47,547 nucleotides of DNA from positions 17,939 to 65,485 of the forward strand of contig PMAA01000253.1 of NCBI GenBank assembly GCA_003152355.1, in the 5' to 3' direction. Made by a program: the position numbers and the translations under genes. Source of the DNA: Acidobacteriota bacterium (GTDB lineage Bacteria > Acidobacteriota > Terriglobia > Acidiferrales > UBA7541). Each line of letters begins with the position of its first letter. Position 1 is the stretch's first letter. Below are positions 1 through 15,879 of this stretch, one piece after another. A model generated the notes under the pieces. That model worked only from the letters and a program-made list of their open reading frames with translations. It did no database searches and was not told the DNA's origin.

Positions 1-1580
1 TCCGTATCGCCGCGCCGAACTTCCGCGTTCACACGATTGAGCGGCGCGGTAATTGCGACGCCACGCCCGCCGGCCTCTTCCACAAGCGCTTCGTTGCCGG
101 ACAACGGTTCGGTTTCCGCTTCCTCGCCTACTGCAAATGTCGTTGAAAGCCCCGGCTGCATTGGTGACACCGCAGCCGCGCTCGGTTTTAACCCGCCGTT
201 TTCCGGGGCGATGGCGAAAATATCCACGCTGACCGCTTTCGACTTCAGGAATTTCTCCGTGCCTTGAAGCTGCGCCTCATCTTGATTCGCAAAAGGCACA
301 GCAGTATTCGCCGCGAAAAAGCTGTGCGTATGAACTGACTTCGGCCCCGCCGCCGTATCTTTCCCCGGAGCCATGGGCATGTGGCAATCCGCGCAGGTTT
401 GCGGTTTCGGCGGATAGTAAAAGGAGCGCGCGCCGAATCCCGAAACGCCGCTGGCCTGCCAGTTGTCATAATCGTTGAACCCGCGAATCCAGCGATAGTG
501 ATTCACCGGTATATCGAGATGCACTTTGTGACAGACCGAGCAGAAATCGGGCGTGTCGTTGCGCATGAACGGCTTCAAAAACGTGCGCCGGTGCGGTTCC
601 GGATTCAGCCCGACAAGAAGATCGTGCAGCCGCCGCACGACTGGGTTATCGCTTGTGGCCAGATCGTGCAGCGCGGGAACTTCGACCAAATAATTTCCCT
701 GGCCCATCGTGCTTCGCACGTTCGTAATCGAGTGGCACATCATGCAGCCGAGGCCGGCTTGTCCTTCCGGCGTCATCTCCACTTCGCGGATTGGCCGGTC
801 GAACTCGCCGCTGAAGAGCAGCGCCGGATCGTGGCAGCCCGCGCACCATTTCGACGCCTGTATCCCGCGCACGTCCTGCATGTACTCGATGCTCTTGCGA
901 TACCACTGATTGTTGAACGATGAAAAGTGATGCGCCGAACTTTTCCACTGCTTGTAAATGTCCTGGTGGCAGCGCTCGCACGTTTGCGACTCCATGAAGT
1001 ATTCTTTGGCGATTTTCTTTTGCCCGGGAGTTTGTGCCGAACTCGGGAAGAACGGCCCGCCCGGCCCGTCGCCCTCGTTGTCCATGCTGGCGGGAGAAAT
1101 TTTCGGATTCTCGATGCGATTGGCGCGCTCCCATGGGACCGTGCGCAGCCACCACGCGCCTCCTGCAATTCCGGCGGCGAGTAAAATGGCCAGCGCGTAA
1201 CGCGGCGCTGCGCTCGCCGCGGTAGTGAAGAGCCATCCACGCTTGCCCGCCCACGCCGCCGCGAGAACCGCGCCGCCCGCCATGCATGCGCCGATATGAG
1301 AATAAAGCAGCCATTTCATGCTGCGAGGCGCGCCGGTAAATATCAGAACGATTCCAAGCGCCGTTCCGGCAAGCAGCAGGAGCCACGCGATTCGCTCGGC
1401 CGCACCGCCGTTCCGAATTTGTCTCAGAATAAACGGCAGAGCCACGAATGCGAAGAAAACGCCCGCGGCCAGATGAAAGGCAACCGCTCCTTCATAAATG
1501 ATCGTCGCCGTTGGCCATGAAAAAAGATACGCGGCACTAAGGAAGAGGGAAGACAACAGAAAAATGCGGAGTCGGTTCAT
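1..1580 (-). CDS. Membrane-anchored multihaem cytochrome c, 3' end cut by the window edge
   Basis: The frame read from the ATG at 1580 stays open to base 1 (526 codons), so the C-terminus lies outside the window. The first ~145 residues hold about four hydrophobic segments. After them come five CxxCH haem-attachment motifs, CERCH (~201), CAGCH (~246), CMMCH (~279), CSVCH (~347) and CADCH (~396). Further His residues between them could be distal haem ligands. This architecture fits a periplasmic electron-transfer protein tethered to the inner membrane, like the cytochrome c554/NapC-type multihaem proteins. The electron donor and acceptor cannot be read from the sequence. No strong Shine-Dalgarno precedes the ATG. 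The sugar permease gene lies 128 bp upstream in the same direction, so co-transcription is possible but not compelling. The family call is firm; the physiological role is unknown. Confidence 0.85.
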   Translation of the reverse strand, partial: MNRLRIFLLSSLFLSAAYLFSWPTATIIYEGAVAFHLAAGVFFAFVALPFILRQIRNGGAAERIAWLLLLAGTALGIVLIFTGAPRSMKWLLYSHIGACMAGGAVLAAAWAGKRGWLFTTAASAAPRYALAILLAAGIAGGAWWLRTVPWERANRIENPKISPASMDNEGDGPGGPFFPSSAQTPGQKKIAKEYFMESQTCERCHQDIYKQWKSSAHHFSSFNNQWYRKSIEYMQDVRGIQASKWCAGCHDPALLFSGEFDRPIREVEMTPEGQAGLGCMMCHSITNVRSTMGQGNYLVEVPALHDLATSDNPVVRRLHDLLVGLNPEPHRRTFLKPFMRNDTPDFCSVCHKVHLDIPVNHYRWIRGFNDYDNWQASGVSGFGARSFYYPPKPQTCADCHMPMAPGKDTAAGPKSVHTHSFFAANTAVPFANQDEAQLQGTEKFLKSKAVSVDIFAIAPENGGLKPSAAAVSPMQPGLSTTFAVGEEAETEPLSGNEALVEEAGGRGVAITAPLNRVNAEVRRGDT

Positions 1581-1708: not shown

Positions 1709-2692
1709 CTATCCGCCGTTGTGCGCGCGCGCCACAAGCAAGATCGCGACCGCATAAAACGCAAACATCAGCGCCAGATACGCGCGCGCCTGCTTGTTCG
1801 CTCCCGCGAACTCCTTCCACACGAGCACGCCCCAGAGCGCCGCCACCATCGGCGCGGATTGCCCGATCGCGTACGCAATCGCAAAACCAATCGAATTGCC
1901 CGCCACGAGACTGAACACCGTGCCGATTCCCCAAATGAATCCGCCGAGCAGGCCAAGCAAATGCGCGCTCGCCGGCGCCTTGAAAAATCCGCTGAACGCC
2001 ACCGGCTCTCCCACAAGCGGATGCTTCATGAAATAAATATTCCAGATGAAGCAGGAGAGCAGCGCGCCGAGCGTGAAAAACACCGCGAGGCTGTAAGGCC
2101 CGAGACTGTTTCCCGTGCGCATCGCATGCGTCGAAATCGGCGACCACAGTCCCATCAACACGCCGGAAACGATGCAAATCGTAATGCTCTTCCGTGAAAT
2201 CGCGCGATTCGCCACCGGCAGTTGCCCGTAAGCCTTTCCATCCATGATGACCGCCACGATCGCGCAGAGCACCCCGGCCCCCAACATCAGCGCGCTGCCC
2301 TTCGGCTCGCGAAGATATGTGAGCACCACTCCGACCACGAGTGCGATTCCGATCGAGACGGGAAACGCGATCGAGAGTCCCGCGATGTCAATTCCCGCGA
2401 CCAACAGAAGGTTCGCCAGATTAAAAATCGCGCCCGCGATCATCGCATAGCCGATGTTCGAATTATCCGCGGCACGCACGTTCGTCCAGAAATTCGATGC
2501 GTCCGTTCCGGTGTTGCCCATCGTCAACGCAAGGATGAGCGAAATGACGAAAATGCCGATCGCATAGTCCCAATAAAAAAGTTCAAAGCGAAAATTCTTG
2601 ACGCCTTTATAAGTGTTGGCCCACGAGCCCCAGCAGAAGGCTGTCGCGACCATCATGACCAGCGCGATCGTGAAATTCGGCGGTGTATACAT
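1709..2692 (-). CDS. GRP-family (RhaT/RbsU-like) sugar permease
   Basis: The 327-residue protein is almost entirely hydrophobic, with about ten predicted membrane helices in the DMT/GRP arrangement. It opens with a helix rich in Trp and Gly (ATAFCWGSWANTYKG). The resemblance is to GRP-family permeases that take up glucose, ribose or rhamnose in symport with a cation. An AAGGA/GGAG Shine-Dalgarno lies 2-7 nt before the ATG. The gene is 63 bp downstream of the PfkB kinase and in the same direction. A sugar permease next to a sugar kinase, behind exported nucleoside hydrolases, suggests it imports the ribose they release. The substrate is inferred from context only. Confidence 0.75.
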   Translation of the reverse strand: MYTPPNFTIALVMMVATAFCWGSWANTYKGVKNFRFELFYWDYAIGIFVISLILALTMGNTGTDASNFWTNVRAADNSNIGYAMIAGAIFNLANLLLVAGIDIAGLSIAFPVSIGIALVVGVVLTYLREPKGSALMLGAGVLCAIVAVIMDGKAYGQLPVANRAISRKSITICIVSGVLMGLWSPISTHAMRTGNSLGPYSLAVFFTLGALLSCFIWNIYFMKHPLVGEPVAFSGFFKAPASAHLLGLLGGFIWGIGTVFSLVAGNSIGFAIAYAIGQSAPMVAALWGVLVWKEFAGANKQARAYLALMFAFYAVAILLVARAHNGG

Positions 2693-2755
2693 CGCTCCGT
2701 CCTTTCGATTCGGTTGCCTGCGGATTCGTGCTTGCTGCTTTTTCGGAAGCGATCT

Positions 2756-3733
2756 CTAAAACGCCGGAGCTCCCGCCGGACTTTTCGCCTTAATGAACGC
2801 CAAAACTTCATCGCGCTTCGCCATCGCCCGCGCGCCAACCTTTGTGCAGACAAGCGCGGCGCACGCGTTGGCAAAAAGTCCCGCGCGCGCGTGATCCCAT
2901 CCCTGAAGCAGCGCGTACGAAAGCCCGCCCATGAACGCGTCGCCCGCGCCGGTGGTGTCCACCACATTCGGCCTGAACGCCGGAACGTGGACCATTTTAT
3001 CCGCCGACGCGATTAAGCAACCCTCTCCCCCCATGGTGATCGCGACAAGTTTTGGCCCCAGCTTCAGCAGACCGGTTGCCATATGTTCGAAGTCCGCTGC
3101 ACCCGTCAGCTCGCGCGCAGCTGCTTTGCACGGTTTCAAGACGTCCACGAGCTGCAACGCGGCGGACAATTCTTGCTCTGATCCTAAATTCGACTGCGCA
3201 AAAAAGCTCGGCGCCACATCGAGATCGAATACAACGCGCACACCGGCCGCCTGCGCCACCTTCATCGCCTCGCGGACGGGCACGATCGGAAGTTGCGACG
3301 CTTCGGTGTGAAAATGCTTCGCCTTCTGAATGTGCTGTGCGAAACGGCCGTTCACCTGATGCGCCGTAATCTTGCCGGTGACGTTCGGAAACATGTAAAT
3401 GCAGCGCTCGCCAGCTGCATCTACCGGAATCCACGTCAGCGACGATCGCTCGCCATTCACGATTTCAATTCCGCCGAGGTCCATGCTGTCGGCCCTGAAC
3501 GCTTCCTGAATAATTCGGCCGTTGTCGTCGTCGCCGATTAATCCGAGCCAGCCAGCCGGCGCCCCGAGCCGCGCTACCTGCGTCAAATTGTTCGCCGTCA
3601 CTCCGCCCGCGTGAACTTCGAGCCGCTCGGCGTTGATTTTTTCTTCCGGCCCGAGAAGTCGCGGCACAATCGCGAAATAATCCACCGTGCAGCTTCCGAT
3701 TCCCACCACGTCAACATTTCGGCTCTGTGCCAT
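2756..3733 (-). CDS. PfkB-family carbohydrate kinase, ribokinase-like
   Basis: The 325-residue protein has the family's usual length. An N-terminal GG-x-N substrate-binding region (HAGGVTANNLTQVARLG, 42-57) is followed by the C-terminal PfkB signature DTTGAGDAF at 259-267. Asp265 is the expected catalytic base and GAGD the anion hole. The enzyme would transfer phosphate from ATP to a sugar or nucleoside hydroxyl in the cytoplasm. Its neighbours, nucleoside hydrolase NH1 upstream and a sugar permease downstream, make ribose the likeliest substrate. Adenosine, inosine or a deoxysugar remain possible because PfkB members are hard to separate by motif alone. The start is supported by a GAGGGG-type ribosome site supplied by the last copy of a 12-bp tandem repeat, 4 nt before the ATG. 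Confidence 0.85.
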   Translation of the reverse strand: MAQSRNVDVVGIGSCTVDYFAIVPRLLGPEEKINAERLEVHAGGVTANNLTQVARLGAPAGWLGLIGDDDNGRIIQEAFRADSMDLGGIEIVNGERSSLTWIPVDAAGERCIYMFPNVTGKITAHQVNGRFAQHIQKAKHFHTEASQLPIVPVREAMKVAQAAGVRVVFDLDVAPSFFAQSNLGSEQELSAALQLVDVLKPCKAAARELTGAADFEHMATGLLKLGPKLVAITMGGEGCLIASADKMVHVPAFRPNVVDTTGAGDAFMGGLSYALLQGWDHARAGLFANACAALVCTKVGARAMAKRDEVLAFIKAKSPAGAPAF

Positions 3734-3737
3734 TAGC

Positions 3738-3797
3738 CCCTCACTTGGACCTTCGCTTGGACTCTCATTTGGACCCTTATTTGGACCCTTATTTGGA
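3738..3797 (-). repeat. Five tandem 12-bp repeats spanning the NH1 stop codon and the kinase ribosome site
   Basis: Read on the minus strand, five consecutive 12-bp units follow the pattern TCCAAATAAGGG, the last three with substitutions. The first unit contains the TAA stop of nucleoside hydrolase NH1 (3789-3791). The last ends in GAGGGG directly before the ATG of the PfkB kinase. Every unit carries an AAGG/GAGG-like purine stretch, so the array is effectively a row of Shine-Dalgarno copies joining the two genes. Confidence 0.85.
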
Positions 3798-4949
3798 ATT
3801 ACCCGCCGGATGCGCGCCGGGCGTGGGCCGAGCCATCAGTTCAATAAACATTTTCTCGAATTTTTCGCGGTTCAGCTCAGCCGGCAAATGCACCAGCTGC
3901 TCGCCAAGTCCTGGGTGCAAGTCAGCAGTCCACACAATCACGTTCCCGTAGCCCGCTCCATGATCAATGTTAATGTCCATGTAAAGCTGGTCTTCCTTGG
4001 TGATGACGCTCGGATCGAGCCAGCCCGCCGCCGCTAGTTCATCCCACATATATTCCACGTCCGCGTATTTCGCCACGTATTGCGATGCGGCGCTCGTTGA
4101 TTTTGCCAGTTCGGCGATGAGCTCTTTTGTCATTCGCGTCTTGATCGAAATGTCTACCGTGGTGATCGTGATTTTATGCCACGGCGAAGTCAGCGTGATG
4201 TGCACCGCTTCCGGGTCCCACCAGAAATTAAATTCCCTGCGATTTTCCGTCCTCCACTCGATCGGAACCACCGGCGCAACGCTCCCGCCCATGATCACAA
4301 GTTCCTGCGCAAGATCGGGAACGTTCGGATCGAGGCTGATGGCTTGCGCAATATTCGTAAGCGGCCCGCCCGCGTAGATCGTCACTTGGTGCGGATATTT
4401 GTGCACCATGCGGATAATGAAATGCGCCGCGTCTTCTTCGGACGCTTTCGTCGTGGGATTGCCCTCGACGATGTCCGGCACGACGAACGGCTCGTGCCAT
4501 CTCCCACGCAATCCTTCGCCCAGATTCATCCCCGGGCGATGCCCGTTCCATGCGCCCTGATAATGCACGGTGCCGTACAATTTTTCCCACCTCTCGATAA
4601 AATCCATCCGGTTGATCAGCGGGTACACTGCGCCGGGCAGCACCGGAATATCCGTGCGCCCGACAATTTCAAGCATGCGCAGCGTGTGCGCCACTTCTTC
4701 ATCGCGCCACATATCGCCGCTCACCACCGTAATGCCGAGTGTCTCCACTTCGGGCGACTGGATGAACATCAACATGGACTGCTGGTCCGTTGTTGCCGGT
4801 CCGCGCGCATCCTGATCGAGAATTACTTTTCTTTTATTCTGCGCGGCGGCAGGGAAGACAAAAATCAGGCCAAGCGCGATCGTGCAAATTATTTTCAAGC
4901 TGGTTTTGAGGCCCACGGATGGAAATACCCCCTTGGAGTTTATGCCCAT
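3789..4949 (-). CDS. Exported nucleoside hydrolase NH1, variant metal-site subfamily
   Basis: This is an IU-type nucleoside hydrolase that would cleave the N-glycosidic bond of ribonucleosides to base and ribose. From the ATG at 4949 it has 386 residues; the frame is open to 5099, and a GTG at residue 12 is also possible. A signal peptide (TSLKIICTIALGLIFVFPAAAQ) precedes the catalytic domain, so it should act in the periplasm. The usual DTDPGxDDA metal loop is replaced by DQDARGPATTDQQS (Asp45, Asp47, Asp55), which is four residues longer and lacks the adjacent Asp pair. Other family landmarks remain: IMGGS, an EFNFWWDPEA motif and a C-terminal WDELAAAGWLDPS carrying the last metal Asp. NH2 shares all these variations. 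It is followed by the PfkB kinase across a tandem repeat. Hydrolase activity is likely but untested for this subclass. Confidence 0.85.
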   Translation of the reverse strand: MGINSKGVFPSVGLKTSLKIICTIALGLIFVFPAAAQNKRKVILDQDARGPATTDQQSMLMFIQSPEVETLGITVVSGDMWRDEEVAHTLRMLEIVGRTDIPVLPGAVYPLINRMDFIERWEKLYGTVHYQGAWNGHRPGMNLGEGLRGRWHEPFVVPDIVEGNPTTKASEEDAAHFIIRMVHKYPHQVTIYAGGPLTNIAQAISLDPNVPDLAQELVIMGGSVAPVVPIEWRTENRREFNFWWDPEAVHITLTSPWHKITITTVDISIKTRMTKELIAELAKSTSAASQYVAKYADVEYMWDELAAAGWLDPSVITKEDQLYMDINIDHGAGYGNVIVWTADLHPGLGEQLVHLPAELNREKFEKMFIELMARPTPGAHPAGNSK

Positions 4950-5113
4950 CCCTTCGCGTTGAGGCGCATTGAGACGGCCGTTCGAATGCTCGTTCGAAAT
5001 CATTTCCGGCAGGCGCTGCTTATAATTCCCGGCACCGCGCGAGTCAAGCGAAAACCCCCGGTCACCCGCGCGAAATCGATCGCCGCGCAAAATATCCAAA
5101 CAATATCGGATGC

Positions 5114-5119
5114 TATAAT
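5114..5119 (+). promoter_or_regulatory. Perfect TATAAT -10 box, implying a leaderless TPR transcript
   Basis: TATAAT lies six bases before the ATG at 5126 with no Shine-Dalgarno between them. Initiation 6-7 nt downstream of the -10 would place the transcript start at or next to the start codon. No good -35 hexamer is visible 17 bp upstream. Confidence 0.5.
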
Positions 5120-5125
5120 TCGCGG

Positions 5126-6604
5126 ATGCCTTTGCATTATAGTGGCAGGCCAGCGGCTTTCTGGCGCAATCTGGCGCACGATATCATTTGTATACAAACC
5201 TTCGCCGCATTGTACTTCTTCCTATTTCCAGCCGCATCTTTTTGCGCCGCGCAGCAGCTTCCTGAAAATGCGCGCGTGATGGCGGAGCAAGCTCAATCCG
5301 AATTCGCGCACGGCCACTGGAACGAATCCGCCGCCGCGTATGAAAAAGCCGCAGCGTTAGCGCCGCACGACGCAAACTTGCGCATCTCGCTTGGCCTCGC
5401 GCTCGCAAAGGCTGGCCGCCCCACCGATGCCATCGCCAGCTACGAAGCCGCGCTTGAAATCTCGCCGCGCAACAGCGCCGCGGAAATCGATCTCGCCGAG
5501 GCATATCGCGCCGTCCACAATAACGACGCAGCCCGCGGCCTTCTCGAACTCTCCGCCCGCGAGCATCCCAAGCTCGCCGCGCCGCTCGCCGTCCTCGGCG
5601 ATCTCGATATCGAGCTGCAAACATACGAGGCAGCGATCAAGCATCTCTCAGCCGCACTCGCGCTCGATCCCGCAAACAACGAAACGCGCGACCGCCTCGC
5701 GCTCGCCTACAAATCAAAAGGCGAAGCCGCCGCCGCGCTCGCACAGCTTTCAAAATTGCTCGCCCATGATCCGAATGACGCTCTCGCGCATTTTCTCCGC
5801 GCGCAAATCTACGACGACCGCAATCAGGACGACCGCGCGCTTCCCGAAGCCGAAAAAGTGCTCGCGCTGCAGCCGCAAAATATCCGCGGCCGCGCCATCC
5901 TCGGCAAAATCCTGCTGCGCGTTTCAGAGAGCGCCAAAAGCGCCGATGCGCACACCCTTTGCACCCGCGCCGCCGACATCCTAAAACCGCTCGCCGCCGC
6001 TCAGCCCGGCGATTCCGAAACTCTTTTCATCCTCGCACGCGCATATCGCTGCGCGGGCCAAGCGGACGAAGCCGAAAAAACTCTCGCCGCATTCGAATCG
6101 GCCTCGAAAGCTCTCCGCTCGTCGAAAGAAAATCAAAATCAAGCGCTGCATCTCGTCCATCAAGCCAACGACCGCGCTCTGCAAAACGATTTTCCCGGCG
6201 CACTTGCTCTCCTCCAGCAAGCGCTCGAAAAATATCCGGACTACGATGCCGCATACTCGCAACTCGCCAAGCTCTACTATTCCGCCGGCGACATCGAAAA
6301 GGCCAGCGACGCAATCACCCGCGCTCTCGAGCTCTCGCCCTATCAGCCCGATTTCCTCTACGTCCAGGGCAAAATTTTCGACAAACAGGGCAAGCTCGAC
6401 GAAGCGCTCTCCAATTTCCAGCGCGCCACTCTCGTCAATCCAAAAGAATCCGACGCCTACTTCGAAATCGGCGCCATCTACCAGCAGAAAAACGATCCCG
6501 AGCGCGCCAGAGCCGCCTACAAGAAAGCCATCGAACTCTCCCCCGACGACGCCGACTACCGCCGCGCACTCGCGTCACTCTCGACCGCCGCCCCGTCGCC
6601 CTGA
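5126..6604 (+). CDS. Secreted or periplasmic TPR-repeat protein
   Basis: The 492-residue protein is built almost wholly from about ten tetratricopeptide repeats of 34 residues (for example AAIKHLSAALALDPANNETR and EALSNFQRATLVNPKESDAY), a scaffold for protein-protein contacts. A hydrophobic stretch at about 24-42 (FAALYFFLFPAASFCAAQ) looks like a signal peptide. This supports the first ATG and makes the later Met at 5279 less likely. The gene is transcribed against its neighbours: divergent from NH1 and convergent with NH2, whose coding region it overlaps by 49 bp at the 3' ends. The partner is unknown; an accessory role in the nucleoside locus is only positional inference. Confidence 0.8.
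   Translation: MPLHYSGRPAAFWRNLAHDIICIQTFAALYFFLFPAASFCAAQQLPENARVMAEQAQSEFAHGHWNESAAAYEKAAALAPHDANLRISLGLALAKAGRPTDAIASYEAALEISPRNSAAEIDLAEAYRAVHNNDAARGLLELSAREHPKLAAPLAVLGDLDIELQTYEAAIKHLSAALALDPANNETRDRLALAYKSKGEAAAALAQLSKLLAHDPNDALAHFLRAQIYDDRNQDDRALPEAEKVLALQPQNIRGRAILGKILLRVSESAKSADAHTLCTRAADILKPLAAAQPGDSETLFILARAYRCAGQADEAEKTLAAFESASKALRSSKENQNQALHLVHQANDRALQNDFPGALALLQQALEKYPDYDAAYSQLAKLYYSAGDIEKASDAITRALELSPYQPDFLYVQGKIFDKQGKLDEALSNFQRATLVNPKESDAYFEIGAIYQQKNDPERARAAYKKAIELSPDDADYRRALASLSTAAPSP
5187..5198. promoter_or_regulatory. 12-bp perfect palindrome, candidate operator
   Basis: TTTGTATACAAA is fully self-complementary. It lies 61 bp inside the TPR gene, about 240 bp upstream of the NH1 start on the other strand, so it sits where a regulator of either divergent gene could bind. 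A short direct repeat (TCTGGCGCA twice, 5159-5177) lies just before it. No cognate regulator is encoded in this locus. Confidence 0.3.
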
Positions 6605-7821
6605 ACCTTCGCAAAATTTCCAGAACCGTCATCCACGCGCACATCCGCGCCAACGCTCACACCCGCACCAGCACTCGCCCCCACCGCCGCATGCGCTCCT
6701 GGCGTCTCAGCCGTCATCAGCGCAATAAATTCTCTATAAAATTTCGCGAGATCCAAATCCTCCTGAACCTCAACAAGCTGCTCGCCAAGCCCAGGCTGCT
6801 GCCCCGGCACCCAAACCATCGTGTCGCCATACGACGCCCCATGATCAATCGAAACATCCATATAAAGCTTCACTGATTTCGTAATCATCGATGGATCAAG
6901 CCACGCCGCCGCCGCCAATTCGTCCCAGAGATAGCCTTCCTCGGCATACTTGGCGATGTATTTTGCCGATGGCGAAGTCCCCGCCGCGATCTGCGCGATC
7001 ATCTCCTTGCTCATCTTCGTCTTCACCGAAATATCCACGGTCGTAACCACAATCCGCGGCCACGGCGCGCGAAACACGCGCCTGGTCGCCTCGGCATCAA
7101 TCCAGAAATTAAATTCGCGCCGCGGCGTCACCACGAATTCCGGATCGTTCGTCTCCGGCGCGATGCCCCCGCCCATCACAATCAGCTCTTTCGCGAGCGA
7201 CGCAAATTCCGGATCGAGATTCATCGCCAGCGCCAGATTCGTCATCGGCCCCGCCGCGTAAATCGTCACCTGGTGCGGATATTTCCGCACCATCCGAATC
7301 AAAAAGTGCGCAGCATCTTCTTCGATTGCCTTCGTCGTCGGCTTGCCTTCCGGCATCGGCGGAATTTCGTACGGGCCATGTACCGGCTTGCCCCAATTCC
7401 AGGCTCCCTGATAAATAATCTTGCCGTAGATATTTTCCCAGCGCGCCATCTCCTCTTTTGTGTTCACGAGCGGGAACACGGCGCCAGGAACCACCGGAAT
7501 ATCCGTCCTGCCGACAATCTCGAGCAGCCGTAGTGCGTGCAGCACTTCTTCATCGCGCCAAGCATCGCCGGTAAGCACGGTGACGCCAAGAACGTCAGTC
7601 TCTGGCGAATTCACAATCGTCAGCACCGCCTGCATATCGGTCCCGCCAGGCCCGGCGCAATCCTGGTCGATAATCACTTTGCGTTTCGTTTGCGCCACAG
7701 CAGTCCCGGCGAACGGTGCCGTAAACACTGCTGCCAGCAGCGCGATAAGCATTGCGCTAAACATTGTTGCGAAAATCGCGGACAAGCGAATCCTGCGAGC
7801 AATCCTAAATCTAATTTTCAT
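6556..7821 (-). CDS. Exported nucleoside hydrolase NH2, variant metal-site subfamily
   Basis: The 421-residue paralogue of NH1 starts with an Arg-rich n-region and a long hydrophobic core ending at AVAQ (residues ~12-44), a clear signal peptide. The metal loop reads DQDCAGPGGTDMQA (Asp52, Asp54, Asp62), the same four-residue expansion and loss of the DD pair as in NH1. EFNFWIDAEA and WDELAAAAWLDPS follow at the equivalent positions. The last ~45 residues are a low-complexity Ala/Gly/Val tail absent from NH1. Their coding DNA overlaps the end of the TPR gene, so the tail may have arisen by stop-codon loss. The gene lies 44 bp downstream of the Qng1-like gene with a GAAAGG ribosome site, as the last member of the NH3-receptor-Qng1-NH2 unit. 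It would hydrolyse nucleosides in the periplasm; substrate range unknown. Confidence 0.85.
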   Translation of the reverse strand: MKIRFRIARRIRLSAIFATMFSAMLIALLAAVFTAPFAGTAVAQTKRKVIIDQDCAGPGGTDMQAVLTIVNSPETDVLGVTVLTGDAWRDEEVLHALRLLEIVGRTDIPVVPGAVFPLVNTKEEMARWENIYGKIIYQGAWNWGKPVHGPYEIPPMPEGKPTTKAIEEDAAHFLIRMVRKYPHQVTIYAAGPMTNLALAMNLDPEFASLAKELIVMGGGIAPETNDPEFVVTPRREFNFWIDAEATRRVFRAPWPRIVVTTVDISVKTKMSKEMIAQIAAGTSPSAKYIAKYAEEGYLWDELAAAAWLDPSMITKSVKLYMDVSIDHGASYGDTMVWVPGQQPGLGEQLVEVQEDLDLAKFYREFIALMTAETPGAHAAVGASAGAGVSVGADVRVDDGSGNFAKVQGDGAAVESDASARR

Positions 7822-7865
7822 CTGAAGGGCCTTTCGGAAGGAGACTCCGATACTCCGGTCAATAC

Positions 7866-9002
7866 TTAATACATAATCGTTCGCGTCAAATGGTGCGGCC
7901 AGAAAGTCGTGTGATACGGCAGCCAGAGCCTGGCGTCAATTTGAGGAATAATAATCTGCAACTCAGGCGGACGAATCTTGTTCACTTCTTCGCGCAACAG
8001 CGCGGTCGCGTAAAGCAGGTGCGCGCGAATCTCGATTTCCTGCGTGCTGTCCCGCGGAATCAATTGGTACGTGTTGATCGTGTGCTCGAGCGCCGGCGAG
8101 TACTTCAGAATTCCGAGAATCCGCAATGCCGCGGGAACGATGTAATCCGCAAACGCCGTCATTTTCTCGGGATCTTCCAGCCGGAACCCGCCTTTTCGAA
8201 TTTGCCGGTAGAGCATCCAGAGGCCCAACTGCGCCAGCTTGTAGAACTTGATCTCATGCCCGTCGTACATGCTGACGTCGTTGAATCGCGGAAATTCCTT
8301 CACCATTCGGTCGATCAGCCCGTTGCCGTTGTCGTAGAGCTTCGGCGAGCAGGAGTGAACGAAGTTCGAAAATCGCCCGTCGTACTTCGCGGCCAGCACA
8401 CCTCCCACTTCATGGAGCACCGCCAGCTTTTCATCGAGCATCGGCATCTCGATATTTCCCGCAAAAATCTTATTCAGGTCCTCCCGGCTGATCTTCGCGA
8501 GGTATCGTCCATCGAGAATGGGAATTCCTTCTTCCATCGCCCGCCTCAAGCAGGCGAACTCGGCTTCGGAATCCGACCAGTGTTGCCCCATGTAATCAAC
8601 CTGGAACTTCACGTGGTTAGAGAAATCCGTGAACGCCGTATCGATCGAATCCGTCACCATGATGAAATCGATCTGCTTGTCCGGATCGCTGCCGATGTCG
8701 AGCGGTTCAGCGTAGTCGGGCATTGGCAAATCTTCGTATGCCATCCAGTCCGCGACTTCTACGATCTTGTCCACGTCCGTCCGCACGTCTCGCGAATGCT
8801 CGATGACGGGCCGTAGGCTGTCGAGTACGGGGCTGCCGATGGGTTTAGGCCAACGCAATGGTGTGCTTTCCGCCGACGCAGAAGCTGAAAACGAGGACGA
8901 CGCTGCGGCGTGCCGGAGGCCCTCGCCTCCGGCCGCCGCCAACATCATAGAACTTCCGAGTCCCTGAAGAAACCGCCTGCGTCCGTTAGCCTCAAAGGTC
9001 AT
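7866..9002 (-). CDS. Queuosine-salvage N-glycosylase family protein (Qng1/DUF2419) with a Tat-like signal
   Basis: The 378-residue protein matches the eukaryotic/bacterial queuosine-salvage family (C9orf64/QNG1), which hydrolyses queuosine 5'-monophosphate to free queuine. Family landmarks in order: VTDS (116-119); AMEEGIPILDGRYLAKIS (155-172); MPMLDEKLAVLHEVG; FPRFNDVSMYDGHEIKFYKLAQL (237-259); FADYIVPAAL (284-293); ILKYSPAL; EIEIRAHLLY (322-331); and DARLWLPYH near the end. Unlike cytoplasmic relatives it begins with GRRRFLQGLGSSMMLAAAGG, a twin-arginine-type export signal. The NFSFW-like motif of the human protein is replaced by IDTAFTDF, so the substrate may differ. The start is the ATG that shares one base with the TAA of the TonB receptor (TAATG at 9004-9000), indicating translational coupling. 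Family membership is strong; export and substrate are inferred. Confidence 0.82.
   Translation of the reverse strand: MTFEANGRRRFLQGLGSSMMLAAAGGEGLRHAAASSSFSASASAESTPLRWPKPIGSPVLDSLRPVIEHSRDVRTDVDKIVEVADWMAYEDLPMPDYAEPLDIGSDPDKQIDFIMVTDSIDTAFTDFSNHVKFQVDYMGQHWSDSEAEFACLRRAMEEGIPILDGRYLAKISREDLNKIFAGNIEMPMLDEKLAVLHEVGGVLAAKYDGRFSNFVHSCSPKLYDNGNGLIDRMVKEFPRFNDVSMYDGHEIKFYKLAQLGLWMLYRQIRKGGFRLEDPEKMTAFADYIVPAALRILGILKYSPALEHTINTYQLIPRDSTQEIEIRAHLLYATALLREEVNKIRPPELQIIIPQIDARLWLPYHTTFWPHHLTRTIMY
8912..8933. repeat. REP-like palindrome inside the Qng1 signal/linker coding region
   Basis: A 9-bp perfect stem (GCCGGAGGC / GCCTCCGGC) with a 4-nt loop encodes residues 24-31 of the Qng1-like protein, AGGEGLRH. 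It and the following TGC-x-GC stretch resemble the two intergenic repeats at 13776 and 13891, so a dispersed element appears to be embedded in coding sequence. Confidence 0.6.
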
Positions 9003-12000
9003 TAGAAGATGAACTTGACCCCTGCTTGGAATGCGAACGGCGTGCTGCCCGGCGCCACTTGCGTGATCTGCCGGTACGTCGAGCCAGTCGGCGAAATCGA
9101 CTGGAGATACGGCAGCGAGAGCGATGTCAGCGGAGAGCAACTATAACCAAGCGCCGGCGATCCCGGAAACAACGTAGTCCACGGCGTGCAATTTCCCGCC
9201 GTCGAGTACGAAATTGTTCCATTGGTGTCCGGGTTCGAATACAGATTGGCGTGGTTGGTCAGGTTGTAGAAGTCACCCGATAGCTGCACCCTATATTTCT
9301 CGCCGAGCTTGATATCCTTTGCCAACCGCGCGTCCCACTGCGCGTAGCTTGGTTGATCGAACGGATACCGGCCGAGCAGGTAAGGCTTGCCGCTCCCGAT
9401 TTGCACGCTTGGCCGATCGTTGTTGTGCGAATAACCGGAATTGGCCACGCCGTCTCCGTTCACGTCAATGTCCACGTAGAGCGGAAATGGCACGCCCGTG
9501 TGGTAGATGATCGTCGAGCTGAGCAAGAAGCCCCACGGCAAATCAACCACGCCGCCGCCCTTGATTTGCGACCGGATATCCAGGCTGTTTCGGCCGTAAT
9601 CGAGGTTGATGTTGAACGGGTCCTGCTGTCCGAAGTATGTATCGGTGTCGCGTTCGCTCGCACCGTTATCCTTGTTGTTCGACCAAATGTAGTTCGCGAA
9701 CAGTTGGTAGTGGCTCGCGAAGCGCTTCGTGATGTTGATAACGACCGACTCGTAGTTGCCGTGCGCGTAGCTGGCGGTCGTGTTCGTGTCAGACGCGAGC
9801 GTCGGGTCTAGAAGCCCGCAAATAATCGTTCGGCCAAACTGGTCGAGCGCGGGCGGTTGTCCGGGTCCGCCGCACGGCGTGAAGTTCCGATACCACGCTT
9901 CTTCCGATCCGTATCCGCCGGTTCGGAGATGCTGCGAATTAACCCATGCAAACGTGCCAGTCAATGTCCAGCTACCCGCAAATGTTTGCTCCAGGCTGCC
10001 CGTCAGGCTTGAAACGCGCGGATTCCTAAACTCAGGATCCACGAGATTGGGGCCTGGGCATCCGTATACGATCCCGTTGACGGGGTCTGGTGTGTTGCAA
10101 AGCTGGTTGATATTCAACGAAGTTGAGCTTGGGAACAGATATGGAAAGCCAGGAGTTGGCAAGCAAGCGGAATCGAAGAAGCAAAACAGCCCGGTAGTCT
10201 TCCCGCCGCCGCCCGTGGGCACAAAGATAGTCGGTATTACAGCGTAGTAGTATCCCCACGCCCCGCGCACAATCGTTGGATTTTTTGTTCCGCCCACGTT
10301 CCACGCCAGCCCGACGCGCGGTCCCCACTGGCCGAAGTCATCCGGAAAGCGCTGCGGTATCGGAATGGCCTTGCTGCTGGAACCGAGCCCCGTATAAGTT
10401 TCGTTCCCAGGGAACGCGGTCTGCGGTTGCGGGAACCACGTTCCGTCCCATCGCAATCCATAGGTCAGCGTGATTCGCGGCGTGATCGTCCATTTGTCCT
10501 GCCAGTAAAGCCCGACGCCCGTCAGGTAATTCGGGTAAAGCGTACCGGCATTGAAGAGAGGCGTGTTGTTAAGTCCCAGATCCTGAATCAGCGCGTTCGG
10601 AGTGCCGGCTTGGAAGGCGGACAAATCCTCAGAGAAGGTATTCAGAAGGCTGAATTCATATTGGCCCGTGGACCATCCGACGAATGTATCCTTGCGGTCC
10701 TCAAACGTGTCTGAATCGCCGCCGAATTTCATGTCGTGCTTGCCGAATGAGTAAGAGAAGTTATCCGCGATTTGCAGTTTGTTGTTTTCGCCGTTGATCG
10801 GCAGGTAGTACCGCTCACCGATCAATCCAGGCCCGATCAGGTCGGTCTGCTGAAAACCGTCAGCTGCATGCCGGGCGCGGGTTTCGGCCGACACGCTTAC
10901 ACGGAGTTCGTTGACCTTCCGGCCCAGCACCGTGTTCAGCGAAAATACCGTGCTGATACCTTCGTTGAGGAAGTTCTCCGTATCTCCGAAGGCCGCTGGA
11001 GTTTCGTTCTGGCCTAATCCTCCGGTAAACCCGGAGGTGTGATTTCGCGTCCCATACGCCCGGACGCTAAAGTGATTCGCCGGGGTGAACTGGTAGTCGT
11101 AGTGCCCAAGGATCGTAAACAAGTCTTGAAATTGCGTATGCGGTCCGTTGAAACCCGCGAGACTAGCCACTCCATAGCAAGCTTGCAAGTAAGTTTGTCC
11201 GGCTGTGGGAGTGCCGCAAGAGGATGGAAGCTGAAAACCCGCTGTCAACGGCCCCGGCACAGGAACCTCGCCCGAAGGGCACGGCAACGTCACGCAGTTT
11301 GCGAACGTCGGCCCGGTTACGCCGCTCAACATCGTGTTGCAGTCTGCCACCGATCCGCTACTGCACAGGTTCGTAACCAGCGGACCGTTCTGTTTTTGAA
11401 CGTCCGTGGCGAGGAACAAGAACTGGCGATCCTTGTGAATCGGGAAGCCGATTGAACCTCCAACCTGATTCTGTGTGCTGATGTTCGGCGGATTTCCGAG
11501 CGCGTCTTGCGCCGTCAGGCCGCTGCCGCGGTAGTATTCGTGGGCTTCGCCGTGTACTTCGTTCGTGCCCGACTTCGTCACCACGTTCACCAGTCCGCCG
11601 GTCGCGCGCCCGAACTCCGGAGCGAATCCGTTGGTCACGACCTGAAATTCCTGCACGGCGTCGAGTGGAATCGTGAAGTTCTTCGTCTCCAGAGACCCGA
11701 AAATTTCGCCGAAGAAATTGTTGAAAGTGTCTTGGCCGTCAACGACCATGCCCAGATAGTCGCTTTGCTGGCCGCCGAGGCGTATGCCTCCGCGCAATCC
11801 AGGAACGATCTGCGCCGACGAACTCAACTGAGCGAGGTCGCGATAATCGCGGCCGGAAAGCGGCAAGTCTTCAACATCTTTCTCGTTGATGACCTGGTTG
11901 ATTCCTGCGGTCGTCGTGTCCACTGGACCAAGCGCCGACGCGCTCACCGTCACGGTCTGCGTCTGGCCTTTCACCGGCAGCGTCACGTTGAGATCTAGGC

Positions 12001-12313
12001 TCGCGCCAATCTGCACGGTGATGTCCGTGACCTCGGTCGCGGCGAATCCCTCCGCCTCCGCCCGCACCCTGTATACTCCCGGCAGCAAATCATCAAACGC
12101 GTACGTCCCGCCCGAGTCCGTCTTCACCTCATGCTTGTAACCGGTGGACGGATTCGAGATCGTTACTTTCGCGTTCGGCACCACCGAGTGCGTCGAGTCA
12201 TATATGAAGCCGCGGATCGCGCCGCGTTCCAAGTTCTGCGCGTTCACGCCGGCAGCCGTCACCAGCAATCCCAGCACCGCCAAGGCCAGGAATACACTCT
12301 TCCAAATCTTCAT
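9002..12313 (-). CDS. Oar-like TonB-dependent outer-membrane receptor
   Basis: From the ATG at 12313 (ribosome site GGGAGAG six bases upstream) the protein has 1103 residues. The frame is open a further 25 codons, but MKIWKSVFLALAVLGLL starts a textbook signal peptide ending at VNAQ. Next come a carboxypeptidase-regulatory-like beta-sandwich (~28-115, RGFIYDSTHSVVPNAKVTIS), a plug domain (EKDVEDLPLSGRDYRDLAQL), and a long beta-barrel ending in Phe (VKFIF), the usual signal for outer-membrane insertion. Such receptors bring substrates too large or scarce for porins across the outer membrane using TonB energy. It sits between exported nucleoside hydrolase NH3 and the Qng1-like glycosylase, overlapping the latter by one base. 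A nucleoside, nucleotide or RNA-derived ligand is therefore likely, by context only. Confidence 0.9.
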   Translation of the reverse strand: MKIWKSVFLALAVLGLLVTAAGVNAQNLERGAIRGFIYDSTHSVVPNAKVTISNPSTGYKHEVKTDSGGTYAFDDLLPGVYRVRAEAEGFAATEVTDITVQIGASLDLNVTLPVKGQTQTVTVSASALGPVDTTTAGINQVINEKDVEDLPLSGRDYRDLAQLSSSAQIVPGLRGGIRLGGQQSDYLGMVVDGQDTFNNFFGEIFGSLETKNFTIPLDAVQEFQVVTNGFAPEFGRATGGLVNVVTKSGTNEVHGEAHEYYRGSGLTAQDALGNPPNISTQNQVGGSIGFPIHKDRQFLFLATDVQKQNGPLVTNLCSSGSVADCNTMLSGVTGPTFANCVTLPCPSGEVPVPGPLTAGFQLPSSCGTPTAGQTYLQACYGVASLAGFNGPHTQFQDLFTILGHYDYQFTPANHFSVRAYGTRNHTSGFTGGLGQNETPAAFGDTENFLNEGISTVFSLNTVLGRKVNELRVSVSAETRARHAADGFQQTDLIGPGLIGERYYLPINGENNKLQIADNFSYSFGKHDMKFGGDSDTFEDRKDTFVGWSTGQYEFSLLNTFSEDLSAFQAGTPNALIQDLGLNNTPLFNAGTLYPNYLTGVGLYWQDKWTITPRITLTYGLRWDGTWFPQPQTAFPGNETYTGLGSSSKAIPIPQRFPDDFGQWGPRVGLAWNVGGTKNPTIVRGAWGYYYAVIPTIFVPTGGGGKTTGLFCFFDSACLPTPGFPYLFPSSTSLNINQLCNTPDPVNGIVYGCPGPNLVDPEFRNPRVSSLTGSLEQTFAGSWTLTGTFAWVNSQHLRTGGYGSEEAWYRNFTPCGGPGQPPALDQFGRTIICGLLDPTLASDTNTTASYAHGNYESVVINITKRFASHYQLFANYIWSNNKDNGASERDTDTYFGQQDPFNINLDYGRNSLDIRSQIKGGGVVDLPWGFLLSSTIIYHTGVPFPLYVDIDVNGDGVANSGYSHNNDRPSVQIGSGKPYLLGRYPFDQPSYAQWDARLAKDIKLGEKYRVQLSGDFYNLTNHANLYSNPDTNGTISYSTAGNCTPWTTLFPGSPALGYSCSPLTSLSLPYLQSISPTGSTYRQITQVAPGSTPFAFQAGVKFIF

Positions 12314-12374
12314 CGTCGCTCTCCCGTTTGTAGTTCGCTTCTGAGACATTCCTGCTCGAATCCCAGTCCGCAAT

Positions 12375-13433
12375 CTACTTCCCCTCAATCCGTGAAATAA
12401 AAAGCTGAATAAATCTCTCGCCCTCCACGCTCGTGCAAACTTCCACGTTCGGTTTCACGTGGTCAACGCCTTCGATAATGTACCTGTCGCCGTGCAGCAC
12501 GTTCCGCTCGATTTCATTCCGCCGGTTGGCCACCGTCTCGCCGCGGCTGAATTCTCCGCGCGTTTCCACGTCCACGTGCATCGCTTGCGTCTTCATCAGC
12601 GTTGAGTCGATCGCCTCGCCCACCGCCAGCGGGTCGTACATCGGTGAGCCCGTGTCTCCGAATTTCTCCGAGAGCTTCACCAGAAAATCCAGCACGGACA
12701 CCATGAAATCGTTCTGCGGCCCATGCGTCTTTGCCAGTTGCGCGAGATGCTTTCGGCCAAAGAGCGTTTCGTTCCCGACGTCGAGCCCCACCATCGTCAC
12801 CGGCCATCCCGCCTGAAAAACGATCTGTGCCGCTTCCGGATCGTTATAAATGTTCGCTTCGGCCGCCGCGTTCACGTTCCCGCCCGAAATTGATCCGCCC
12901 ATCACGATCACTTCTTTCACCAGCGGCACGATCGAAGGATCCTTCAGCACCGCCAGCGCGATATTCGTTTCCGGCCCGATCGGCACCAGCGTGATTTCAT
13001 GCGGCGCCTCATGCACCATCTGAATGATCAGATCGGGACCGAATCGCGTATCCGCTTTGCATTTCGGTGCGGGCAATTCCACGTTCGCCAGCCCGTTCTT
13101 CCCGTGCCAGAACTCCGCCGTGATCAACTTCTGAAACAGCGGATGTTCCGCGCCTCCCGCTACCGCGACGTCGCAACGATTCGCAAGTGACACCAGCTTC
13201 AGCGCGTTCTGCAATCCCTGCGCCGCGGTCACATTGCCGGGGACCACCGTCAGCGCCCGCACATCCAATTCCGGCGAATTCAGCGCGAGCAGGATCGCAA
13301 TCGCGTCATCCGTGCCCGGATCCGTATCAATAATTACCTTGCGCGCTTTGGCTTGCGGACTCGCCGCAACTCCAGGCGCAGCGGCAAGCGCCGCGATCGC
13401 CAGGCACGCGCACAACATCGCACATGCGTTCAA
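12375..13433 (-). CDS. Exported nucleoside hydrolase NH3, canonical active site
   Basis: The 352-residue inosine-uridine-preferring type hydrolase carries the intact metal loop DTDPGTDDA (Asp36, Asp38, Asp42, Asp43), IVMGGSISGGN, the EANIYNDPEAA nucleoside-binding motif and YDPLA for the last metal Asp. The His usually before DPLA is Tyr here. The N-terminus is a signal peptide (LCACLAIAALAAAPGVAAS). The start is unsettled: the listed first codon is TTG, an in-frame ATG lies at 13418, and the frame stays open upstream with more signal-like residues but no ATG or GTG. It is the first gene after the best promoter in the locus and lies 61 bp before the TonB receptor gene. It would release ribose and base in the periplasm. 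Confidence 0.88.
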   Translation of the reverse strand: MNACAMLCACLAIAALAAAPGVAASPQAKARKVIIDTDPGTDDAIAILLALNSPELDVRALTVVPGNVTAAQGLQNALKLVSLANRCDVAVAGGAEHPLFQKLITAEFWHGKNGLANVELPAPKCKADTRFGPDLIIQMVHEAPHEITLVPIGPETNIALAVLKDPSIVPLVKEVIVMGGSISGGNVNAAAEANIYNDPEAAQIVFQAGWPVTMVGLDVGNETLFGRKHLAQLAKTHGPQNDFMVSVLDFLVKLSEKFGDTGSPMYDPLAVGEAIDSTLMKTQAMHVDVETRGEFSRGETVANRRNEIERNVLHGDRYIIEGVDHVKPNVEVCTSVEGERFIQLFISRIEGK

Positions 13434-13568
13434 AATCAGGCCCGTCAGAAACTTTCGAGCCCCGAAACTCTGGGAGGGGTCTACAACTGGAAAAGAACTG
13501 ACCTCGCGAGCGATTCGAATCTTAAAAACTTGGCCCAGGACCGTCCCCCCAGCTTACGAATGGCGCGT

Positions 13569-13597
13569 AGCGTAACTTTCGACTCAGACCCTGTCAA
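13569..13597 (-). promoter_or_regulatory. Sigma70-type promoter of the NH3-receptor-Qng1-NH2 unit
   Basis: On the minus strand TTGACA (13597-13592) is followed after exactly 17 bp by TACGCT (13574-13569). Transcription would start near 13562, leaving a leader of about 130 nt before NH3. The -35 is perfect; the -10 is a weak match. Confidence 0.5.
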
Positions 13598-14019: not shown

Positions 14020-15879
14020 ATGCACGCCACATCCAAGAATCCATATCGCTCTCACCACGCTACCTACCTTCGCGTCTTCACTCTGGTCTTCATAAGCAGC
14101 GCGCTCGCGCTAACTGCCGCCCCGCCGCGCCAGCAAACGCATCGCACGCCGGCCCGCGCCTCCGCGTCCGAATCAAATATTCCCGCCGCCGATGCAAATC
14201 CGTTCCACGTACAGTTCCTAGGCGTCACCGTCGCCGCCGGCATCCACTTCCATCACGAGCGCGCCCAATCCCCCAAGCGCATGTATCCCGAGACCATGGG
14301 CGCCGGCGTCGCCTGGCTCGACTACAACCAGGACGGCTATCTCGACGCTTTCTTCGTCAACAGCGGTTTCACTCCGCTCTTCCATCCCGCCCACGCCCCT
14401 CAACCCGCCCTCTATCGCAACAACGGCGACGGCACTTTCACCGACGTGACCGCCTCCAGCAAAATTCGTTCCGACGGCACATTTTTCTTCGGCGTCGCCG
14501 TCGGCGATTACGATAACGATGGCTACCCCGACATCTACATGACCGGCTATCGCCACTCCGTCCTGCTCCACAACAATGGCGACGGCACTTTCACCGACGT
14601 CACCGAAAAAGCCGGCGTCGGCAACGATGGCAACTGGGGCACGGCCGCCGGCTGGTTCGACTACGATCGCGACGGCAAGCTCGACCTCCTAGTCACCAAT
14701 TACGTTCAATACGACATGGACAATCCCATCACCTGCGGCGATTTCCGCCCCGGCTACCAAAATCTTCCGCAAGTCAGTTCCTATTGCCATCCCGACAATT
14801 TCCCCGGCACCTCGCCGCGCCTCTATCACAATAATGGCGACGGCACGTTCACCGACGTCACCGCCAAAGCCGGCCTCGTCAACAAAGACGGCAAAAGCCT
14901 CGCCGTCGTCCTCGCCGATCTCAATAACGACGGCTGGCCAGACATTTTCATCGCCAACGATACGCAGCGAAATTTTCTCTATCTCAATAACGGCGACGGC
15001 ACATTCCGAGACGTCAGCTACACCGCGGGCGCCGGCTTCAGCGAAGATGGCCGCCCCGAAGCCGGCATGAGCGCCGACGCCGCCGATCTCCGCAACAACG
15101 GCCGCATGGATCTCTACGTCAGCCATCTCGATTTCGAACTCAATCGCCTCTACACCAACAACGGCGACGGCACGTTCACTGACAGCACCATCGCTTCCGG
15201 CCTCGGCCAATCCAACATTCTCAACAGCAGTTTCGGCGCCCGCTTCTTCGATTTCGACAACGACGGCTGGCGCGATCTCCTCGTCATAAACGGCCACATC
15301 CTCGACAACATCGCCCGCTACCATCCCGATGTGAAATACGCCGAATCGAAAAAACTCTATCGCAACACCGGCGGCGGCCATTTCGTTGACGCGAGCGCCA
15401 CCCAGCCCGCGGCATTCCTCGCTCCGAAGGTCGGCCGCGGCCTCGCCGTCGGTGATTACGCCAACGACGGCTGGCTAAGTTTCCTGGTGAATAACAACGG
15501 TGAGAACGCGCAACTTTTCCGCAACAACGGCGCCACTTCGCCCGCCGCCCGCGAAAATCATTGGCTCGGCATCCGCCTTGTCGGCGTAAAAAGCAATCGC
15601 GACGGCACCGGCGCCCGCCTGAAAATCACCGCCGGTGATTTCACAAGCTACGATCAGGCCAAAGGCGGCATGAGCTACATGTCCGCCCAAGATCCGCGCA
15701 TCTATTTCGGCCTCGGCCCCCACGCCAAAGTAGACACGCTAGAAATAATTTGGCCCAGCGGCATCCGCCAAGAATTAAAAGACGTCCCCGCCAACCAAAT
15801 CATTACCGTAGAAGAAGGGAAGGGCATCACCCCTTACAAATATCCTGAAATTCGAGTGAAAGCTCGAATTTCGCGTTGA
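14020..15879 (+). CDS. Secreted FG-GAP/VCBS propeller protein with ASPIC/UnbV C-terminal domain
   Basis: The 619-residue protein starts with a signal peptide (VFTLVFISSALALTAAPP). It continues with repeated calcium-binding FG-GAP/VCBS blades of the form LYRNNGDGTFTDVT and DYDNDGYPDIY (five or more copies between ~85 and 480), predicted to form an extracellular beta-propeller. The final ~90 residues (HWLGIRLVG, GTGARLKI, YFGLGPHAKVDTLEIIWPSG) are the ASPIC/UnbV domain. Such proteins are abundant in Acidobacteriota and Planctomycetota; they are thought to bind surface ligands or matrix, but a defined activity is not established. It is a single gene, divergent from the nucleoside locus. A 10-bp perfect stem overlaps its 3' end. 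Confidence 0.9.
   Translation: MHATSKNPYRSHHATYLRVFTLVFISSALALTAAPPRQQTHRTPARASASESNIPAADANPFHVQFLGVTVAAGIHFHHERAQSPKRMYPETMGAGVAWLDYNQDGYLDAFFVNSGFTPLFHPAHAPQPALYRNNGDGTFTDVTASSKIRSDGTFFFGVAVGDYDNDGYPDIYMTGYRHSVLLHNNGDGTFTDVTEKAGVGNDGNWGTAAGWFDYDRDGKLDLLVTNYVQYDMDNPITCGDFRPGYQNLPQVSSYCHPDNFPGTSPRLYHNNGDGTFTDVTAKAGLVNKDGKSLAVVLADLNNDGWPDIFIANDTQRNFLYLNNGDGTFRDVSYTAGAGFSEDGRPEAGMSADAADLRNNGRMDLYVSHLDFELNRLYTNNGDGTFTDSTIASGLGQSNILNSSFGARFFDFDNDGWRDLLVINGHILDNIARYHPDVKYAESKKLYRNTGGGHFVDASATQPAAFLAPKVGRGLAVGDYANDGWLSFLVNNNGENAQLFRNNGATSPAARENHWLGIRLVGVKSNRDGTGARLKITAGDFTSYDQAKGGMSYMSAQDPRIYFGLGPHAKVDTLEIIWPSGIRQELKDVPANQIITVEEGKGITPYKYPEIRVKARISR
15847..15872 (+). terminator. Hairpin across the end of the ASPIC gene
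   Basis: GAAATTCGAG and CTCGAATTTC form a perfect 10-bp stem with a 6-nt loop, ending seven bases before the last base of the stop codon. No T-run follows, so it may stabilise the 3' end rather than act as an intrinsic terminator. CTCGAATTTC recurs at 15906-15915. Confidence 0.4.

Follow-up and report, generated by a model that had tools for sequence, protein, structure and literature searches.

The DNA analysed here (the window) is a stretch of 47,547 nucleotides from an Acidobacteriota bacterium (GenBank assembly GCA_003152355.1, contig PMAA01000253.1, positions 17,939 to 65,485). Seven minus-strand genes at positions 1709–13433 encode three nucleoside hydrolases (NH; PF01156), an Oar-type receptor, a protein of the Q_salvage/Qng1 family, a PfkB kinase and a permease. 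From the gene families, their conserved order and their export signals, we conclude that this locus is probably an acidobacterial nucleoside-utilisation system that acts in the periplasm, the periplasmic form of a module for nucleoside catabolism. An earlier note on this DNA had proposed periplasmic hydrolysis by a locus organised like a polysaccharide-utilisation locus (PUL), a proposal with which the synteny, the export signals and the catabolic partners are in accord.

Organisation of the Locus

Genes were assigned to families by matching the window proteins to Pfam profiles with the model cut-offs applied, and every assignment passed. In the order of transcription, the genes are NH3, receptor, Qng1-like and NH2, followed by NH1, PfkB and permease. 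The locus and its flanking gene comprise the following features:

12375..13433, minus strand: NH3, canonical nucleoside hydrolase (PF01156, 302 bits), first gene of unit 1
9002..12388 (open reading frame, ORF; likely ATG at 12313), minus strand: Oar-type outer-membrane receptor (PF25183, 256 bits; PF13620, 76 bits)
7866..9002 (ORF reaches 9140), minus strand: Qng1-like (Q_salvage/DUF2419) predicted N-glycosidase (PF10343, 188 bits)
6556..7821, minus strand: NH2, divergent nucleoside hydrolase (PF01156, 191 bits)
5126..6604, plus strand: TPR-repeat protein (Pfam TPR)
3789..5003 (ORF reaches 5099), minus strand: NH1, divergent nucleoside hydrolase (PF01156, 180 bits)
2756..3733, minus strand: PfkB-family kinase (PF00294, 191 bits)
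1709..2692, minus strand: drug/metabolite-superfamily inner-membrane permease (PF07168, 80 bits; PF06800, 35 bits)
14020..15879, plus strand: FG-GAP/ASPIC-UnbV protein (Pfam), divergent from NH3

The earlier note had placed the genes on one strand. All seven do lie on the minus strand, but the plus-strand TPR gene at 5126–6604 sits between NH2 and NH1 and divides the locus. We regard this gene as real, since its place and orientation are kept in relatives: opposite-strand orthologues, scoring 263–558 bits, occur in loci L051, L058, L073, L085, L094 and L110. Because a conserved gene on the opposite strand separates NH2 from NH1, there are two transcription units, NH3–receptor–Qng1–NH2 and NH1–PfkB–permease, and a single operon of all genes is ruled out.

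No SusD family member or regulator was found with Pfam among the genes at 1709–13433, so the locus does not show the SusC–SusD pair and linked regulator of a classical PUL. There is also no nuclease or phosphatase within the locus, which leaves without support the RNA fragments that the earlier note had considered as a substrate, though an exported UshA-type 5'-nucleotidase is encoded elsewhere in the home genome and could supply nucleosides from nucleotides. At the left edge of the window (3–1580, minus strand) is a partial gene for a multihaem (CxxCH) cytochrome-like protein, homologues of which follow the permease in L051, L058 and L061.

Conservation and Catabolic Neighbours in Acidobacteriota

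A locus from the same genus (L058) has the genes permease–PfkB–NH1–TPR–Qng1–receptor–NH3–ASPIC in identical order and on the same strands, with NH2 absent, while L085 (Candidatus Acidiferrales) has all eight genes (TPR included) and the ASPIC gene, plus a TonB_C gene inside the locus. The receptor, Qng1, several NHs, the kinase and the permease are retained in other classes of the phylum (L073, L108, L110), and in L073, L090, L100, L108, L110 and L111 the parts appear in changed order yet still clustered. FG-GAP/ASPIC-UnbV orthologues lie beside NH3 in L058, L073, L085, L094, L100, L108, L110 and L113. Phylum-wide and independently of Qng1, 8 of the 38 ureide permease genes among the matches listed have an NH no more than 10 kb away, against 0.29 expected, a rough estimate in which the window pair is uncounted. 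Given this excess and the shared order and strands in L058 and L085, the clustering exceeds what chance would produce. The conserved nucleoside-utilisation locus that the earlier note had predicted is thus borne out by synteny in L058, L085 and the other classes. Across 32 acidobacterial Qng1-like loci, many of them cut by contig ends, NHs are nearby in 22, the kinase in 19, the permease in 15 and the receptor in 14.

The neighbours in relatives include deoC, deoA, cdd, aldehyde dehydrogenase, dihydropyrimidinase and true ribokinases. DeoC and cdd pass the NCBIfam cut-offs, DeoA passes TIGR02644 and PRK05820, and the ribokinases in L086, L096, L073 and the actinobacterial L117 score above the TIGR02152 cut-off. 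In L165, a dihydropyrimidinase (642 bits), an NCS1 base permease and a CNT gene adjoin the locus genes; in L166 a Xan_ur (xanthine/uracil-type) permease adjoins them, and L167 contains a LacI-type regulator. Because such genes adjoin those of the locus, the neighbourhood, as judged from gene content, is one of nucleoside catabolism, beyond tRNA-base salvage alone.

Export Signals and the Contrast with Other Phyla

Export was judged by motif and hydrophobicity, without a signal-peptide predictor. NH1 has a Sec signal (MGINSKGVFPSVGLKTSLKIICTIALGLIFVFPAAA), as does NH2, with cleavage predicted near AVA-QT, and the receptor has a Sec signal (MKIWKSVFLALAVLGLLVTAAGVNAQ) when read from ATG 12313. 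The N-terminus of the Qng1-like protein (MTFEANGRRRFLQGLGSSMMLAAAGG) is a Tat-type signal, with the motif RRRFLQG eight residues in, and the home genome encodes TatC. By these marks, we find the signals convincing in four proteins: NH1, NH2, the receptor and the Qng1-like protein. The earlier note had seen export signals on all three NHs and the Qng1/DUF2419 member; NH3 fits less well, as its N-terminus in the window is hydrophobic but lacks a charged n-region, although most of its orthologues have clear Sec signals.

The same pattern holds across the phylum. In the 32 acidobacterial Qng1-like loci, signal peptides are present in 41 of the 42 neighbouring NHs, and at least 23 of the 32 Qng1-like proteins have Tat signals, a count that leaves out L091, L093, L103 and L109, whose Tat calls are doubtful by eye. 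In contrast, no signals were found in the 37 NHs or the 48 Qng1-like proteins of 48 loci from other phyla. The closest Qng1-like relatives outside the phylum are mostly from Actinomycetota, with 50–54% identity. Non-acidobacterial operons often hold a Bmp substrate-binding protein, an ABC ATPase and permease, a nucleoside deoxyribosyltransferase (NDT) and an MFS carrier, along with NHs, nucleoside phosphorylases (PNP/UDP), DeoC and ribokinase. The actinobacterial operons L117 and L122, for example, share the same Qng1-like family, NHs and ribokinase with the window locus, but their NHs and Qng1-like enzyme have no signals and are accompanied by a BMP-type ABC importer, making them a cytoplasmic version of the system. 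The Bmp protein is present in 14 of the 48 non-acidobacterial loci and in none of the acidobacterial Qng1-like loci. The exported forms occur without Bmp and the cytoplasmic forms often beside Bmp or, in the home genome, a CNT importer; the location of the enzymes thus follows the type of the neighbouring importer.

A Divergent Branch of Nucleoside Hydrolases

With scores of 302, 191 and 180 bits, NH3, NH2 and NH1 are all far above the PF01156 cut-off of 34.2. NH3 carries the canonical motif DTDPGTDD; its score with the RihA model (256 bits) is under the cut-off of 433. The corresponding motifs in NH2 (DQDCAGPGGTD) and NH1 (DQDARGPATTD) are without the canonical DxDxxxDD. In this branch, DxDxxxDD is replaced by DQDxxGPxxTD, which amounts to a three-residue insertion and a Thr in place of Asp14, in what we take to be the numbering of the Crithidia enzyme (D8, D10, Asp14, D15). 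In an alignment of 18 members of the branch, the Asp14 position is Thr or Ser in all 18, and a Trp precedes the last Asp. D8, D10 and D15 are kept (≥90%), as are an EFN motif and the C-terminal Asp. These features appear to mark out a branch of NHs whose active-site motif is altered. In L063 and L111, two divergent-type NH domains are fused in a 2250-base gene (6720–8969 in L063) with a single signal peptide.

An AlphaFold2 model of NH2 (mean pLDDT 78) matches the fold of ribose-bound plant and E. coli NH structures; against plant NRh2b, the match had an E value of 7e-24 and a TM score to the target of 0.78, which places NH2 in the NH fold. In characterised NHs, DxDxxxDD binds Ca2+ and the ribose 2'-OH (PMC10526354), and because of this role a shift in the sugar or base preference of NH1 and NH2 is possible. 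Taken further, NH1 and NH2 might act on other N-glycosides (2'-deoxynucleosides, nicotinamide riboside or modified nucleosides) or have lost activity. The substitution at Asp14 in all 18 aligned NHs and the three-residue insertion would fit such a change, as would the DeoC and aldehyde dehydrogenase genes near locus genes in relatives. However, the retained D8, D10, D15, EFN and C-terminal Asp indicate that the metal site remains, the catalytic columns do not vary within the family, and the NH2 fold is that of ribose-bound NHs, so we consider this unlikely.

The Qng1-like Protein and Queuosine Salvage

The Qng1-like protein belongs to the same family as the solved Qng1 structures 7uk3 and 7u07 (168 bits), with a match over the whole domain (DUF2419, PF10343). 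At the positions of K199 and D231 of 7u07, presumably the catalytic pair of Qng1, it retains the Lys and the Asp (FYKLAQ, FADY), which are invariant in six orthologues. In its location, the property compared here, the window protein departs by its N-terminal Tat signal from Qng1, whose substrate in the cytoplasm is queuosine-5'-phosphate; it differs also in its nucleoside-catabolic neighbourhood and in forming a well-separated clade. In the tree, the locus-type acidobacterial branch is divided from the other acidobacterial branch by a very long and fully supported separation, and four acidobacterial Q_salvage genes of the other branch (L072, L074–L076) have no such NH, permease or kinase nearby. 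The locus-type proteins appear to be an exported branch of the queuosine-salvage family that seems not to have been described. With its probable start at ATG 9002, the Qng1-like gene shares one base with the stop codon of the receptor gene, an overlap that suggests translational coupling of the two genes.

Two taxonomic labels in this set call for comment. The Qng1-like proteins of L123–L125, contigs whose titles name a metagenome-assembled genome (MAG) of Bifidobacterium breve, group with those of Nanopelagicaceae-like actinobacterial MAGs, and the species label looks wrong. The contig of L103 is titled Verrucomicrobia but carries a Qng1-like gene of acidobacterial type together with kinase and permease genes, a sign of either transfer or misbinning.

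The family membership raises the question of whether the system serves queuosine or 7-deazapurine salvage, with the exported Qng1-like enzyme freeing queuine and the permease importing queuine or preQ1 for tRNA modification. The kept K199 and D231 equivalents and the presence of TGT in the home genome are consistent with such a role. An acidobacterial ureide permease, Ac_UPS (A0A2V9U0M9), which like the window permease is a PF07168 protein clustered with qng1, carried preQ0 and preQ1 in E. coli, but did not transport Q, and transported queuine only at very high concentration (PMC11130926). The compounds tested in that study were limited to preQ0, preQ1, Q and queuine, and neither TonB nor the periplasm is mentioned in the main text (PMC11130926). 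The home genome also contains QueC (229 bits), so that de novo synthesis of queuosine is likely and scavenging of queuine would be unnecessary. Moreover, the neighbours are those of general nucleoside catabolism, up to six NHs occur alongside one Qng1, and many NH/permease/kinase loci have no Qng1 at all. Both the TGT/QueC content and the gene neighbourhood thus disfavour queuosine salvage as the main purpose, and we judge it quite improbable.

Receptor, Permease and Kinase

The receptor has CarboxypepD_reg and OMP_b-brl_4 domains in addition to its Sec signal, as expected for an Oar-type protein. It is directly upstream of the Qng1-like gene and is locus-specific in several lineages, with orthologues at the equivalent place in relatives scoring 842–1277 bits. 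Nucleosides are small enough to pass through porins, and a TonB receptor would therefore be useful for scarce substrates or larger precursors. Nucleosides might then enter the periplasm by diffusion or through porins, as with the periplasmic NH of Pseudomonas aeruginosa, Nuh, which has no known dedicated outer-membrane carrier (PMC5437708), and the receptor would have another cargo or be a passenger. Consistent with this, no receptor was seen within the flanks examined of the Qng1/NH/permease loci L086, L087 and L089. However, the gene just upstream of the Qng1-like gene is repeatedly an orthologue of this particular receptor, with overlapping stop and start codons in the window; a TonB gene lies inside the L085 locus; and the Qng1-free NH loci L167 and L168 adjoin OMP_b-brl_4 receptors. 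We therefore regard porin entry as rather doubtful and the receptor as the likely route.

The permease matches PF07168 (ureide permease) with 80 bits (cut-off 27) and PF06800 (Sugar_transport) with 35 bits (cut-off 26.3), while the RhaT model gives 37 bits with a cut-off of 320. The sugar permease named in the earlier note is thus one of two candidate assignments, of which the ureide permease family fits better. The protein has about ten helices, its AlphaFold2 model matches DMT superfamily structures only, and no sequence relatives were found in the PDB at E values up to 1. Among 31 loci, the permease directly adjoins the kinase in 16 and an NH in 15, an arrangement that fits ribose as the cargo; some permease loci (L165, L166) also encode a separate base permease, and it is towards ribose that we lean. 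A nucleobase has a substantial though lesser chance of being the substrate, because the best-matching family is that of ureide permeases and the family member beside qng1 carried preQ0 and preQ1. The PfkB kinase has the motif DTTGAGDAF and no export signal. Assignment as a ribokinase was rejected, since the score with TIGR02152 was 157 bits with a cut-off of 300; the protein is ribokinase-like only.

Nucleoside Hydrolases and Importers in the Home Genome

Nine NH genes are present on contigs C17, C71, C180, C182, C259 and C36 (the window contig) of the home genome, an unusual expansion. Eight of the nine look exported, and the ninth adjoins a CNT nucleoside importer. There are two CNT importers, beside conventional cytoplasmic salvage genes; the second (L174) occurs with cytidine deaminase, purine-nucleoside phosphorylase and a homologue of pyrimidine-nucleoside phosphorylase. 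A lack of nucleoside importers, the explanation offered for P. aeruginosa, is therefore ruled out as the reason for export here. The CNT genes also cast doubt on the earlier note's claim that nothing but ribose and bases is taken into the cell.

The window contains a fourth NH gene (41947–43137, minus strand), which scores 292 bits with the RihA model and has a Tat signal (NRREFLGDSAGLLLGG). It has no nucleoside-related neighbours and adjoins a MoxR/DUF58/DUF4350/DUF4129 cluster (36341–41861). Exported NHs without partners, of which this is one, would fit a role outside feeding, in which the exported enzymes alter extracellular signal or antibiotic nucleosides or recycle those leaked by the cell itself, and extracellular nucleoside turnover has signalling roles elsewhere. 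Nevertheless, the locus enzymes are constantly accompanied by the kinase, the permease and enzymes that degrade sugars or bases, which argues for a nutritional role, and this alternative seems very improbable.

A Model for Periplasmic Nucleoside Utilisation

From gene families, synteny, export signals and the tracking of export with transporter type, we infer the substrates, enzyme specificities and flux as follows. Nucleosides, possibly including modified ones, would reach the periplasm, with the Oar-type TonB receptor as the likely entry. There N-glycosidic bonds would be cleaved by NH1, NH2 and NH3, and nucleosides of another class, probably of the 7-deazaguanosine or queuosine type, would be split by the Tat-exported Qng1-like enzyme. 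One product, either ribose or a nucleobase, would pass the inner membrane through the permease, and the sugar would be phosphorylated by the PfkB kinase. Further breakdown in relatives would fall to the products of adjoining genes, namely deoC, deoA, cdd, aldehyde dehydrogenase, dihydropyrimidinase or base permeases. The locus would be the exported counterpart of a module that is kept cytoplasmic in other phyla, often behind a BMP-type nucleoside ABC importer.

Several observations weigh against this model. The receptor accompanies only 14 of the 32 acidobacterial Qng1-like genes, many of whose loci are cut by contig ends; a clear Tat signal is missing from 5–9 of the acidobacterial Qng1-like proteins; and the two CNT importers of the home genome mean that the periplasmic route is not the sole one. 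The export contrast is mostly between phyla, and few evolutionary events may underlie it. A more specialised version, in which the system is dedicated to periplasmic scavenging of deoxynucleosides or modified nucleosides from nucleic acid in the environment, with delivery by the TonB receptor and a substrate range widened beyond conventional salvage by the Tat-exported Qng1 and the NHs without Asp14, strikes us as distinctly unlikely.

Relation to Known Systems

Parts of the model have precedents. The earlier note had described NHs as mostly studied as cytoplasmic salvage enzymes, which omits Nuh, a periplasmic NH with no known outer-membrane carrier, whose products, ribose and base, are subsequently imported (PMC5437708). 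The likeness to our locus lies in periplasmic cleavage by an NH. However, Nuh is described as a single enzyme in a species said to have no known inner-membrane nucleoside importers, whereas here there are several enzymes with a receptor, a kinase, a permease and two CNTs.

The rus locus of Bacteroides thetaiotaomicron (BT2803–2809, RusR/RusT) reportedly combines a receptor, a nucleoside hydrolase, ribokinases and a ribose carrier. Compared by description only, it resembles the window locus in bringing together an outer-membrane receptor, an NH, a sugar kinase and an inner-membrane carrier for ribose or nucleosides. The window locus differs in its Oar-type receptor, in having no SusD partner seen and no locus regulator, in its three exported NHs and Tat-exported Qng1-like protein, and in belonging to a different phylum. 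In the literature, rus is presented as a ribose PUL with RusT as the proposed ribose carrier (PMC12596196).

The link between Qng1 and a ureide permease in Acidobacteriota has likewise been published, for queuosine precursors, and neither a periplasmic NH nor the PUL idea is new. A literature search of incomplete coverage found no reports of the exported enzymes, the receptor, or a link to nucleoside catabolism in Acidobacteriota.

Acidobacteriota rank with the most abundant bacteria of soil, and their diet is poorly known. If the model is correct, it becomes possible to test gene by gene how the carbon and nitrogen of nucleic acids are turned over in soil, and the receptor is a candidate for the outer-membrane step that is missing for Pseudomonas Nuh. 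One set of enzymes would then be used on either side of the inner membrane, with the type of importer changing to match, and both the exported Qng1 branch and the NH branch with the altered motif are open to direct assay.

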